This document shows positions 1-3,048 of a DNA stretch of 64,000 bases, piece after piece; the stretch's first letter is position 1, and every line of letters starts with the position of its first letter. Both the position numbers and the translations under genes were made by a program. The DNA lies in contig VGVZ01000016.1 in NCBI GenBank assembly GCA_016873805.1, positions 1 to 64,000 of the forward strand. The letters run 5' to 3'. The notes under the pieces are model-generated. The model had not been told where the DNA came from and did no database searches. It saw only the letters and a program-made list of their open reading frames with translations. The stretch comes from Ignavibacteria bacterium. Lineage in GTDB: Bacteria; Bacteroidota; Ignavibacteria; UBA10030.

Positions 1-230
1 CGCGCCAAGAAGCACGAGAGCGTGAGAAGTATCTCAAGAGCGGCGCTGGCCGACGGTTTCTGGACAAGATAGAAGCACCGACTTGGTTGGAGTATCTCAA
101 TCAACGCGCCTGTAGCTCAATTGGATACCTGCCCGACGCTGGGAACCGATGGAGGCAGGCGGGGAGCATCAGCCGGAGTCTATCCCGCCGAACCGTCCGC
201 CGCTGTTTTGGCGGAAGGCGGGAGAGCTGA
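1..230 (+). CDS. 3' part of a second GIY-YIG gene copy (5' end outside window)
   Basis: Bases 1-127 are identical to 499-625, the 3' part of the complete GIY-YIG gene downstream. The frame enters mid-codon, with the first full codon at 3. In the complete copy the frame stops at the TAG inside the tRNA-Arg D-arm. Here the base after position 127 differs because an insert begins, so the frame reads on through the tRNA relic to a TGA at 228-230, giving an unrelated Arg-rich tail. Whether the protein is functional cannot be judged without the upstream sequence. It may be a decaying duplicate. Confidence 0.45.
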   Translation, partial: RQEAREREKYLKSGAGRRFLDKIEAPTWLEYLNQRACSSIGYLPDAGNRWRQAGSISRSLSRRTVRRCFGGRRES

Positions 231-306
231 GGGTTAGGGGTTCCCCGCCCGCCCGACCTTGTTCGGATCAGAACGGGCGGTCGGGCGGGGACTCCCTTCG
301 AGCACA
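106..306 (+). pseudogene. tRNA-Arg relic with hairpin inserts in all three loops
   Basis: The segments 106-127, 164-174, 224-243 and 290-299 match the intact tRNA-Arg at 604-677 in order. Three inserts interrupt it. The first, 128-163, is at the 3' side of the D-loop and has a 6-bp inverted repeat. The second, 175-223, replaces the anticodon and has nested 7-bp and 6-bp inverted repeats at 183-189/217-223 and 196-201/210-215. The third, 244-289, lies in the T-loop and has an 11-bp stem at 248-258/279-289. The acceptor stem keeps only five of seven pairs. The D, anticodon and T stems are preserved. It cannot be a normal tRNA because the anticodon is gone. An assembly error is possible. Confidence 0.6.
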
Positions 307-314
307 CAGTTTAT

Positions 315-626
315 ATGACTGACTCTAAGCGGGAATGCAGAGTCGATGTGTATGTTTTGCGAAGTCTTCGAGACCACGACCGTTATATCGGATTATCGGC
401 GTCTACAAGGGGACGACTCGCACAACACAATGCTGGCAAGGTGAAAGCAACGAAGGGCCGACGGCCGTTTGTTTTGACCTACAAGGAACAGTACGCGACG
501 CGCCAAGAAGCACGAGAGCGTGAGAAGTATCTCAAGAGCGGCGCTGGCCGACGGTTTCTGGACAAGATAGAAGCACCGACTTGGTTGGAGTATCTCAATC
601 AACGCGCCTGTAGCTCAATTGGATAG
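315..626 (+). CDS. Small GIY-YIG nuclease-like protein, overlapping tRNA-Arg
   Basis: This 103-residue single-domain protein has the GIY-YIG hallmarks: a YVL strand near residues 13-15, RYIG near 23-26, a conserved Arg in GRLAQHN, and the EAREREKYLK helix with its Glu. It resembles the UPF0213/YhbQ type of free-standing GIY-YIG protein, whose substrates are mostly undefined. The last eight codons and the stop lie inside the tRNA-Arg gene (604-677), so the C-terminal residues are translated from tRNA sequence. The start ATG has no clear Shine-Dalgarno sequence. The 3' half of the gene plus the tRNA 5' part are duplicated at 1-127. Activity is inferred from the family only. Confidence 0.75.
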   Translation: MTDSKRECRVDVYVLRSLRDHDRYIGLSASTRGRLAQHNAGKVKATKGRRPFVLTYKEQYATRQEAREREKYLKSGAGRRFLDKIEAPTWLEYLNQRACSSIG

Positions 627-677
627 AGCATCAGCCTACGGAGCTGAGGGTTAGGGGTTCGACTCCCTTCAGGCGCA
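604..677 (+). tRNA. tRNA-Arg (anticodon ACG)
   Basis: A complete 74-nt cloverleaf. The acceptor stem GCGCCTG pairs perfectly with CAGGCGC and the discriminator is A677. The D-stem is GCTC/GAGC, the anticodon stem is TCAGC/GCTGA around the loop CTACGGA, and the T-loop is TTCGACT. The anticodon ACG would be edited to ICG in most bacteria and reads CGN arginine codons. Its first 23 bases also encode the end of the GIY-YIG gene. Confidence 0.93.
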
Positions 678-720
678 CGACAAAATTGAGAATTGGCAAT
701 TTGAGATTTTGGATTTGGCC

Positions 721-772
721 GCACCCGTAGCTCAATCCCGATCAACTGCATCGTGGATTTCGCTCCGGGTGC
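721..772 (+). pseudogene. Collapsed tRNA-Arg remnant
   Basis: The first 15 bases match the 5' end of the tRNA-Arg at 777, and the last seven restore a perfect acceptor-stem partner (GCACCCG at 721-727 with CGGGTGC at 766-772). The anticodon arm and T-arm are missing, replaced by about 29 unrelated bases. The remnant ends four bases before the intact tRNA. It looks like a deletion and insertion product of a tandem tRNA duplication. Confidence 0.6.
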
Positions 773-776
773 TTGC

Positions 777-850
777 GCACCCGTAGCTCAACTGGATAGA
801 GCATCAGACTTCGGATCTGAGGGTTGGGGGTTCGACTCCCTCCGGGTGTA
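777..850 (+). tRNA. tRNA-Arg (anticodon TCG)
   Basis: A full cloverleaf. The acceptor GCACCCG pairs with CGGGTGT (one G-T pair at the end), with discriminator A850. The D-arm is GCTC/GAGC, the anticodon stem is TCAGA/TCTGA with loop CTTCGGA, and the T-loop is TTCGACT. The anticodon TCG reads CGA arginine codons. It is about 100 bases downstream of the ACG tRNA, so two arginine isoacceptors are clustered. Confidence 0.93.
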
Positions 851-860
851 CTCACTGAGC

Positions 861-889
861 TCCCGTTCCGATTGTGCATCGGAACGGGA
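861..889 (+). terminator. Probable terminator after tRNA-Arg(TCG)
   Basis: A perfect 12-bp inverted repeat (861-872 with 878-889, loop of five) starts 10 bases after the tRNA and is followed by TTCTCATTT. The stem is strong but the T-tract is poor, so it may act mainly in 3' processing. Confidence 0.55.
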
Positions 890-985
890 TTCTCATTTGC
901 CAAAACGGCCGGCGAATGTTTTGTGTGAGCCGCTGCCGTTTTGCGCATCCCGCTGAGCATCGCGAAGCGGGATCGACATGCAGGC

Positions 986-1243
986 TAGCAGACAACGCTA
1001 ACTTCAGTCGATCGTAGAGTGTCATCGAGCGGGACGAATTCAATCATGCTAGAATTCCTGATCCCGCCTGTTCGGCGGGATTCTCATTTCGACAGTGAAG
1101 TTAGCAGACAACGCTAACTTCAGTCGATCGTAGAGTGTCATCGAGCGGGACGAATTCAATCATGCTAGAATTCCTGGTCCCGCCTGTTCGGCGGGATTCT
1201 CATTTCGACAGTGAAGTTAGCAGACAACGCTAACTTCAGTCGA
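986..1243. repeat. 116-bp tandem repeat, about 2.2 copies
   Basis: Copies at 986-1101 and 1102-1217 differ by one base (A1061 versus G1177). A third copy stops after 26 bases at 1243. Each unit holds a GAATTC-flanked inverted repeat, a 7-bp TCCCGCC/GGCGGGA hairpin (1062-1080 and 1178-1196) followed by TTCTCATTT, and across each unit boundary a long near-perfect palindrome (1090-1126 and 1206-1242, 14 paired bases with a 2-nt bulge). The near identity suggests recent duplication. Only two units and no spacers, so it is not a CRISPR array. Confidence 0.85.
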
Positions 1244-1254
1244 AATGGAAGGAG

Positions 1255-2586
1255 TCAGGGGACCTGGCGTTGGCGCAGGAATGCACAGAAGAATCCATCG
1301 GTACCATGAATATGCGGCAGGAGCTTCACGAAGCGACCTGAAGTACTCCCGTGAAGCTGAACACGTTCGACACGGACCGTGGGATCTTCCAGTTCATAGC
1401 CGGGATGAGCATCCAAAAACCCGTTCACCACATCTTCATTCTCTTCTCTGAATAACGTGCACGTCGCATACACAAGCAACCCACCCTGCTTGACATACCG
1501 TGCGCTGTTCGCAAGTATGCGCCTCTGCTTCTCCGAAATCTCCCGAACCGTCTCCTCCGTCACCGTCCATTTCATGCCGGGATTGCGTCGTATCGTCCCC
1601 ACGCCGCTACAAGGCGCATCAACCAGGACGATGTCAAAGACCGGTTCGATATCGGTCTCATCGACTTCGAGCAGGTCGACGACTTTCGTCCGAATATTGT
1701 GCGCTCCTGCACGACGAGATCGCTTTCGAAGTTCTTCCAAACGACGATCATGGACATCTGCCGCAACGATCTCCCCCCGATTCTTCATCAACATGGCAAA
1801 CTCCAGTGATTTGCCTCCCGCTCCGGCACATGCATCCAACACCTTGGCGGTGGGGGTCGGATCAATGAGCAACGGAAGAATTTGACTCCCTTCGTCCTGA
1901 ACTTCAAAATATCCCTCACGAAACGATTGGAGCTGGAAGAGATTCAGCCTCTTTGGAATCTGCAATCCTAAGGGGGAGTATCGCGTCGGTTCGCAGTTCA
2001 CATGTTCCTTCGAAAGTCTGGAATGGCATTCATCTCTGCTCGCCTTCAGCAGATTCACACGGATCGTGAGCGGAGCCGGTTCGTTCAGCGCCTGACAAAG
2101 TCGCTCGCTCTCAACCGGTCCGTATTCTTCTGTGAATCGATGAACCATCCAGTCGGGAAATGAGAATCGGACTCCTGTCCCGACGGAGCTTTTGTCCGCC
2201 GCGGCACGATGTTCGGACAACCCCTTGAGTACCGTATCGATCACGTTTGCAGGGATGGTATCCTGAAGAAATTCTCTGAGATCGGACTCCGAACGGTCGG
2301 CTCCGCTCGTGACAACTACTGAGTAGGCAACGAGGGCGAGTCGCAGCTGTTTCTCCTCGCCCAGCCCCGCATAGTCGTTGCCAACGATTTGCGCGATGAT
2401 TTCCCTGCTCAGTCGGAGATGACGGAGGACTCCATAGACGGTTTCTGCGATGAATCTGCGATCACGAGCGCCGAGATACTTGTGGGAACGGAAAAACCGA
2501 TCCAAGATGGCGTCGGCTGGTTTGGCAGTGAGAAAGAATTCGTGGAGTGCTTCGTAGGTGTGTCCCAGCAGAGAGGAATATTTCAT
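1255..2586 (-). CDS. rsmB: RsmB/NOP-family rRNA (cytosine-5) methyltransferase
   Basis: A 443-residue protein predicted to transfer a methyl group from SAM to a cytosine C5 in rRNA; RsmB acts on C967 of 16S rRNA. An N-terminal NusB-like RNA-binding region (about 1-140) is followed by the Rossmann methyltransferase with VLDACAGAGGKS (SAM loop), the DAPCSG cysteine motif and the YATCTL cysteine motif that releases the product. The start at 2586 (MKYSS) fits the family. The open frame extends 76 codons further upstream, but that part is translated from dispersed repeats. The NusB-like domain favours RsmB over RsmF or NOP2. It is last in the minus-strand run after clpB. Confidence 0.85.
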   Translation of the reverse strand: MKYSSLLGHTYEALHEFFLTAKPADAILDRFFRSHKYLGARDRRFIAETVYGVLRHLRLSREIIAQIVGNDYAGLGEEKQLRLALVAYSVVVTSGADRSESDLREFLQDTIPANVIDTVLKGLSEHRAAADKSSVGTGVRFSFPDWMVHRFTEEYGPVESERLCQALNEPAPLTIRVNLLKASRDECHSRLSKEHVNCEPTRYSPLGLQIPKRLNLFQLQSFREGYFEVQDEGSQILPLLIDPTPTAKVLDACAGAGGKSLEFAMLMKNRGEIVAADVHDRRLEELRKRSRRAGAHNIRTKVVDLLEVDETDIEPVFDIVLVDAPCSGVGTIRRNPGMKWTVTEETVREISEKQRRILANSARYVKQGGLLVYATCTLFREENEDVVNGFLDAHPGYELEDPTVRVERVQLHGSTSGRFVKLLPHIHGTDGFFCAFLRQRQVP

Positions 2587-3048
2587 ACTGAGCAAGGTAC
2601 GAAGAAATGGATATGAAAACAGCGGGCGCACACCGCATCTCAAACCGTGTTGTGAGCGGATTCCGGATCGAGTCCGGAATGACGATAGGGACGGAGCAGA
2701 TTCCCCGCCTGGCCTCACTGCTTCAGATGGACGGCAGACACGCGGATCCCCGCACACATAACATGCGGTACAGGCAAACCCAGAATGACGAGAGAGTTGC
2801 CGCCACGTCATCACCTCCCCCAGTCATGCCGGACTCGCTTGCCCCGTGACGCTTTCACACGGGGATCCGGCATCTGATTCTCACGCGGAGCAGATTCCGG
2901 ATCAAGTCCGGAATGACGATGAGGACGGAGCGAATTCCCGCACACATAACATGCGGGACGGGCAAACCCGGAATGACGAAAGGATGGCGCGGTTCCATCC
3001 CCAGAGGCCTGCGCGGGGCTTGAGTCAGTCACCACAGGAAGATCGACA
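2587..3048. repeat. Intergenic block of dispersed palindromic repeats
   Basis: No gene is supported. The block holds two copies of a palindromic element with core TTCCGGATC.AGTCCGGAA (about 2659-2686 and 2893-2920) and two copies of CGCACACATAACATGCGG followed by a GGCAAACCC/GAATGACGA segment (2751-2790 and 2939-2979). Between them is an imperfect palindrome built on ATGCCGGACT and GGATCCGGCAT (about 2826-2872). On the minus strand these read as SGLDPES-like peptides, a well-known false translation of such elements. They lie between clpB and rsmB and may weaken read-through. Confidence 0.75.

Follow-up and report, generated by a model that had tools for sequence, protein, structure and literature searches.

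The window is a stretch of 64,000 nucleotides from an Ignavibacteria bacterium (assembly GCA_016873805.1, contig VGVZ01000016.1), and its base 1 is the first base of the contig (C16). Its first part holds a broken copy of a tRNA-Arg gene, a small nuclease gene of the GIY-YIG type, two intact tRNA-Arg genes and a palindrome-rich stretch (Table 1).

Table 1. Features at the start of the window, in window positions.
Positions	Strand	Feature	Remarks
1..105	+	3' end of another GIY-YIG copy	truncated by the contig start; 1-127 = 499-625 exactly
106..127	+	tRNA-Arg(ACG) relic, positions 1-22	acceptor 5' strand, D stem, D loop to GGATA
128..163	+	D-loop palindromic insert, 36 nt	CCTGCC...GGCAGGCGGG, between positions 22 and 23
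164..174	+	Arg-ACG relic, positions 23-33	
175..223	+	anticodon-loop palindromic insert, 49 nt	in place of positions 34-37
224..243	+	Arg-ACG relic, positions 38-57	
244..289	+	T-loop palindromic insert, 46 nt	CCCGCC...GGCGGG, at TTC^GA
290..308	+	Arg-ACG relic, positions 58-67	followed by the decayed acceptor 3' strand
315..626	+	GIY-YIG nuclease gene, 103 aa	PF01541, E 3.1e-12
604..678	+	intact tRNA-Arg(ACG)	
721..776	+	5' relic of tRNA-Arg(TCG), positions 1-15, then a hairpin	directly upstream of the intact gene
777..851	+	intact tRNA-Arg(TCG)	
861..1243	+	palindrome-rich stretch	two 116-nt tandem copies and a linker, CGGGATTCTCA, that recurs at tRNA loci

Positions 106-299 are a copy of the intact tRNA-Arg(ACG), split into four segments. 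The original prediction had described four tRNA segments with inserts in the D, anticodon and T loops, and a jump-tolerant alignment reproduced their limits and lengths exactly. The inserts are palindromic. Their self-complementarity, also part of that prediction, can be read from the letters, and the 205-nt relic stretch folds better than 200 of 200 shuffles (z -3.0). The anticodon is replaced, as had been stated: tRNA positions 34-37 are lost at the 49-nt insert. The D-loop insert lies at GGATA^GAGC, and neither this insertion nor the one in the T loop doubles or removes tRNA bases. The D, anticodon and T stems are still present, as had been claimed for the three stems. The acceptor stem is not. 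Read from the letters, positions 67-73 against 1-7 give two mismatches and one G-U pair. The minimum-free-energy fold of the 205-nt stretch is not a cloverleaf, and its D insert forms pairs with the 5' strand of the acceptor stem. With a decayed acceptor stem and no predicted cloverleaf, this copy is a relic and not a tRNA. It lacks both the closed acceptor stem and the cloverleaf that a functional long-armed tRNA would have, which argues against the stable tRNA-shaped RNA that had been suggested as a product.

The original finding did not include the nuclease gene, the 5' relic at 721-776, the mirror architecture or the tandem arrays. The 3' end of the nuclease gene overlaps the first 23 nt of the intact tRNA-Arg(ACG). 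Its protein matches PF01541 with 47 bits (cut-off 22.6), and three other copies in the same genome also match. Residues Y13, Y24, R34, H38 and E70 are invariant across the four copies. We take them to be the spaced Tyr, Tyr, Arg, His and Glu of the GIY-YIG catalytic site. With about 100 aa the protein is essentially the catalytic domain alone; PF01541 was the sole domain found, and no separate DNA-binding domain is recognisable on its 103 aa. The phage enzyme SegB, compared below, is presumably larger. The nearest solved structures are UPF0213 proteins, named hypothetical, and an NCBIfam search gave no useful name. A tblastn search of 50,697 phage records returned no match to this protein, and one IMG/VR scan returned no relatives.

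An Rfam scan of window positions 1-3000 placed only the two intact tRNAs above the gathering score. The stretch 720-775, with the 5' relic of tRNA-Arg(TCG) and its hairpin, has a folding z of -5.9. The segment 861-1243 is a composite double hairpin with TCCC...GGGA ends and a GAGGATCCCG-type linker, and it recurs at tRNA loci. The linker CGGGATYCTCA has 30 sites in the source genome (G000), against 0 for the reversed pattern. Thirteen of these 30 lie at tRNA loci; the other 17 lie away from them, many without hairpin context. Dispersed repeats of 52-53 nt, of the CCGGAATGACG type, occur between genes at 2650-2990. Elsewhere in the genome (L116, G000 C25), a Y1 transposase-like gene has near-identical palindromic repeat arrays on both sides, typical of RAYT/REP.

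The direct repeat of 1-127 at 499-625 is exactly 127 nt long, and a similar contig start in a relative (G013) repeats 119 nt. We read both repeats as probable assembler k-mer overlaps, left where a tandem array was cut. In addition, window positions 158-198, in the region of the anticodon insert, are repeated exactly (41 nt) at the end of contig C1. That contig end looks like part of another array unit, so the array at this locus probably has at least three units.

Relics of the same kind are found across the source genome. We compared each of its 46 distinct tRNA genes with 1 kb on either side, using an alignment that allows long insertions. Relics lie within 1 kb of 15 of these genes. There were 27 relic matches (the Arg-ACG relic entered twice, the second time with Arg-TCG), and the reversed and opposite-strand controls gave 0. 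The claim that such palindromes are more than chance is borne out by these counts and by the folding of the inserts given below. Several tRNAs carry arrays. Ser-GGA has two tandem units, each with a 5' part bearing a D-loop palindrome and a GIY-YIG gene, and Pro-GGG has two of the same kind. Val-TAC has three units of 136 bp, and Gly-CCC, Glu-CTC and Glu-TTC have tandem 3' relics. The Asn, Met-CAT (L051) and Gly relics carry inserts at two or more places. Twelve GIY-YIG matches were found in this genome, one of them UvrC-sized (640 aa), and 8 of the 12 lie inside tRNA-relic arrays. Several relics, those of Asn, Gly, Gln, Glu, Val, Ile, Arg-CCT and Met, have no adjoining GIY-YIG gene. A pattern search of the genome for one insert type found three places, one being the T-loop insert itself. 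Two tRNA-Glu relic units with a T-loop insert, L138 (G000 C1:165.9 kb) and L139 (C1:197.8 kb), are separated by tens of kb from the tRNA-Glu gene (C1:129.4 kb), as if such units could move or be copied.

A search of the source genome and of related genomes for the inserts had been suggested as a check; palindromic insertions into tRNA copies recur in both. With the tRNA relic as query, 24 of 41 genomes have a match (E up to 0.01), in many cases through intact tRNA genes alone. Part of the 20 stretches fetched from relatives show tRNA-Arg, Met or Ser relics with palindromes in the D, anticodon or T loop. The GIY-YIG protein as sole query matches 71 of 98 genomes of the order. An intact tRNA is present in 27 of the 30 order loci (the window included) that were returned by this protein similarity alone. 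The arrangement has two mirror forms. In one, a 5' half with a palindrome is followed by the GIY-YIG gene and the intact tRNA, and the hairpin is in the D arm. The other form starts with the intact tRNA, and its GIY-YIG gene is followed by a 3' half whose hairpins are mainly in the T loop. As a rule, the nuclease gene separates the relic from the intact tRNA and has the same orientation as that tRNA.

The order loci, those of the source genome and the loci from named genomes together gave 37 GIY-YIG genes beside a tRNA, 21 of the 5'-half form and 16 of the 3'-half form. A relic on the far side accompanies 32 of the 37, with an insert in 29 of these 32 and none in the other 3; controls gave 2/74. 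In the phylum sample, 99 genomes were searched and 35 match. We analysed 26 of the 30 returned loci, the four from genomes already used being dropped. These hold 34 GIY-YIG genes. Nineteen have a tRNA within 150 bp, all 19 in the same orientation as the tRNA; 17 of the 19 have a relic, and 15 have an insert, so that two relics are insert-free (controls 2/38). The remaining 15 of the 34 have no tRNA within 150 bp, some being outer array units and some lying in loci without any tRNA.

The scan of named genomes covered 5 loci, reached through short exact peptides. In the Bacteroidetes genome SZAS LIN-48 and two WOR-3 MAGs, a 5' half with a 20-nt D-loop palindrome precedes a GIY-YIG gene and an intact tRNA-Leu or tRNA-Arg. 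Two other named loci gave no relic at threshold (L135) and no tRNA (L136). The arrangement is widespread in bacteria: it recurs across the phylum and in WOR-3, and one genome that shows it is a single contig. Arrays also occur elsewhere, such as three Leu units in G170. At least eight tandem GIY-YIG copies lie in G148:C34:6997-9754 with a spacing of about 361 bp. In the part of this array that was read, tRNA 3' parts with palindromes stand between the GIY-YIG copies, and an ARAGORN run on the 4.8 kb fetched detected no intact tRNA. L159 and L169, from two congeneric species, share one T-loop palindrome, although the relics that carry it derive from different tRNA-Arg genes. The T-loop pattern matched 8 of 395 phylum genomes and its reverse 3; judged by the letters, G000, G004 and G012 alone were taken as genuine.

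We then reduced 65 distinct relics to 40 clean insertions. We dropped breaks at which tRNA bases are lost, flanking segments shorter than 7 nt and inserts whose sequence is a repeat of another; L021 and L109 are outside the set. Since several of the 40 belong to related loci, they are not independent. They fall in the T loop (13), D loop (12), stems (11), spacers (2), anticodon loop (1) and variable loop (1). The original prediction held that the inserts may target single-stranded loops. Of the 40 insertions, 29 touch an unpaired base, where 25.2 were expected (sd 3.0), and 11 lie within stems. Without an enrichment for unpaired bases, loops are not the rule, and a general targeting of loops was rejected. 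Instead, insertions recur at two sites, one at TTC^R in the T loop and one at the 3' end of the D loop: 11 insertions are at position 57, 2 at 56 and 8 at 21-22. At TTC^R and GGATA^GAGC the insertions neither duplicate nor delete target bases. A folding z below -2 was obtained for 33 of 40 inserts and for 2 of 40 control stretches; a perfect stem of at least 6 bp is present in 31 and 5, respectively. The insert sequences differ among loci, although a CCCGCCCGACC...CGGGCGGG type recurs. The tRNA segments of the relics are otherwise nearly unmutated.

A tree of 33 GIY-YIG domains, in which 10 of 30 inner branches are well supported, was compared with the tRNAs at which the genes lie. For the amino acid of the tRNA, with 8 states, the tree requires 8 changes (shuffled mean 15.9, minimum 12). 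The nuclease lineages thus go with their tRNA across bacterial families, which is what target-specific nucleases would show. Vertical descent at one locus would also contribute to this match. The side, 5' or 3', needs 7 changes (shuffled mean 11.5, minimum 7) and is tied to nuclease lineage only loosely.

In the congeners G030 and G040, one tRNA-Arg has the same gene end upstream and the same flank downstream. At this site G040 has two relics and a GIY-YIG gene and G030 has neither, in the one pair compared; the comparison is imperfect, because the G030 locus lies on two contigs and seems to have been split by another integrated element. This apparent integrative element splits the tRNA-Arg locus at G030:C134:3592 (L086) and G030:C113:2993 (L087). 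At one end of the split locus, a truncated tRNA copy is followed by a putative integrase-like ORF.

The layout of fungal mORFs and the published features of phage SegB, both discussed below, lead us to propose homing with restoration of the tRNA. We think it fairly probable that the window shows one unit of a tandem array of small mobile homing-type elements in tRNA genes, which restore the tRNA and have palindromes in the displaced half. A unit would consist of a displaced tRNA piece with one or more palindromes, the GIY-YIG gene, and a tRNA piece that restores a complete tRNA. The nuclease would cut the tRNA gene, and repair from an element-bearing copy would insert the element. The element would bring the 5' part when its gene is upstream of the intact tRNA, as in the window, or the 3' part when its gene is downstream. 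Since one part is supplied in this way, the tRNA would stay functional, and the host's own half would be pushed to the far side as a relic. The intact tRNA would then be a hybrid gene. Palindromes would afterwards occupy the displaced half, mostly at TTC^R of the T loop or the 3' end of the D loop, and their position suggests that they break the nuclease target. Repeated cutting or unequal recombination could then give tandem units. The counts of relics and inserts, the nuclease tree, the arrays and the difference between G030 and G040 speak for this reading. Against homing, the intact tRNA keeps the sites that the palindromes would break. The small protein with no recognisable DNA-binding domain, whose nearest structures are hypothetical proteins, also counts against it, as do the relics that lack an adjoining GIY-YIG gene or an insert, the GIY-YIG genes with no tRNA within 150 bp and the loose tie of side to lineage.

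A broader proposal is tentative, and we doubt it slightly more than we believe it. An undescribed class of selfish elements, present in the phylum and in WOR-3, may home into tRNA genes and restore either half. The palindromes at TTC^R and GGATA^GAGC would serve as boundary or self-immunity, each lineage would be adapted to one tRNA family, and the arrays would expand as accordion loci.

Other readings account for part of these data. REP-like hairpins could have been moved by Y1 transposases of the RAYT/IS200 type into spare tRNA copies without target duplication, with the GIY-YIG gene as a bystander. We consider this unlikely. The target bases left neither duplicated nor deleted at both recurrent sites would agree with it, as would the seven Y1_Tnp matches in the source genome. 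An insert-like palindrome also lies about 400 bp before a RAYT gene on C24, and another about 1.1 kb from a Y1 match on C23. Nevertheless, the inserts differ between loci, and most of the four Y1 loci read, of seven, have other kinds of palindrome. The place of the GIY-YIG gene between relic and tRNA, always oriented with the tRNA, would be left unexplained. The nuclease could also be structure-specific. Single-domain GIY-YIG enzymes may act structure-selectively, and such an enzyme could cut hairpins or cruciforms formed in DNA by the tRNA stems, palindromes being captured at the cut loops. The single-domain protein, the two recurrent cut-like sites in loops and the palindromic inserts speak for this reading; the 11 of 40 insertions within stems speak against it, and we hold it to be rather improbable.

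The palindromes might also be kept because they prevent misfolding between the displaced half and the essential tRNA. One insert or more is present in nearly all relics, and at L133 the predicted acceptor pairing of the intact tRNA falls from 0.89 to 0.05 without it. However, predicted pairing is hardly altered without the insert in 13 of 14 transcripts, although equilibrium folding of long RNAs is a weak test, and we judge this reading quite improbable. Plain tandem duplication with decay needs no element. Slippage would make the tRNA copies, and common palindromes of the genome would gather by chance in the spares. Homology in some relics of the source genome (Asp, Glu) continues past the tRNA end through the terminator, which argues for duplication at the DNA level, and the CGGGATYCTCA linker is also frequent away from tRNA loci. 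On the other hand, the segments are nearly unmutated, yet 29 of 32 relics have inserts. The recurrent sites, the nuclease between the copies and the same layout in WOR-3 make chance gathering a very improbable account. Finally, the window is at a contig start, and its 127-nt repeat resembles a k-mer overlap, so an assembly artefact had to be considered. The layout is also found within long contigs and in the single-contig genome G124. The arrangement of relic, nuclease and tRNA is therefore not an artefact, and there is hardly any chance that the contig end explains the phenomenon.

Returning to the proposed homing elements, their parts can be compared with known systems. Double-hairpin and repetitive hairpin elements of mitochondrial DNA are palindromic inserts in RNA genes or spacers; we know of no tie between them and a nuclease gene or displaced tRNA halves. 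Rickettsia palindromic elements form conserved families, also insert in RNA genes and leave the host genes functional. The original prediction had likened the inserts to them. Unlike the Rickettsia elements, the palindromes described here are variable and sit in spare copies beside an intact tRNA, so the likeness did not hold. The Arg-ACG copy has lost its anticodon, its acceptor stem is broken, and an intact copy lies next door; apart from the recurring type named above, the insert sequences differ between loci. For REP/RAYT systems we know of no tRNA-half context and no GIY-YIG gene. The likeness lies in the short palindromes (available sections of PMC3733652) and in the Y1 transposases of the source genome.

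The closest phage case is SegB. According to the available sections of PMC13096335, SegB of phage T6 is a GIY-YIG homing endonuclease encoded beside tRNAs; it cuts in tRNA genes at the motif RAWTSGAAC and drives tandem amplification of units of tRNA and nuclease gene. In our reading, the complement of this motif, GTTCSAWTY, fits the T-loop box. As with the free-standing SegB of the T4/T6 tRNA cluster, the GIY-YIG genes of the window type adjoin tRNA genes and form tandem units. However, SegB belongs to phages, and displaced palindrome-bearing halves are a feature of the window-type elements, none being described for SegB in those sections (PMC13096335).

The layout itself is that of the mORFs in Glomus and Allomyces mitochondria. 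As described in the available part of PMC3630166, an endonuclease ORF brings an in-phase replacement gene end, and the native part is displaced beyond the ORF; in the atp9 case the endonuclease is of the GIY-YIG type. An ORF between the complete gene and the displaced part is likewise present at 32 of 37 of our loci and in 17 of 19 of the phylum sample. The fungal mORFs concern mitochondrial protein genes, on the C-terminal side only, and that part of the source describes no palindromes in the displaced part (PMC3630166). In contrast, the bacterial layout is on tRNA genes and is built from both sides.

In a literature search that covered few subscription journals, elements of tRNA, GIY-YIG gene and palindrome were not found described in bacterial chromosomes. 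The kind is already known, as endonuclease elements that restore a gene part. The marking with palindromes is the newest part. If the proposed reading is true, it would explain the palindromes, tRNA scraps, nuclease genes and assembly breaks at the tRNA loci of these bacteria. It would also connect single-domain GIY-YIG proteins with palindromic DNA and the turnover of tRNA genes in a way that can be tested. The elements would then be a chromosomal counterpart of phage SegB and of the fungal mORFs, acting on essential RNA genes.
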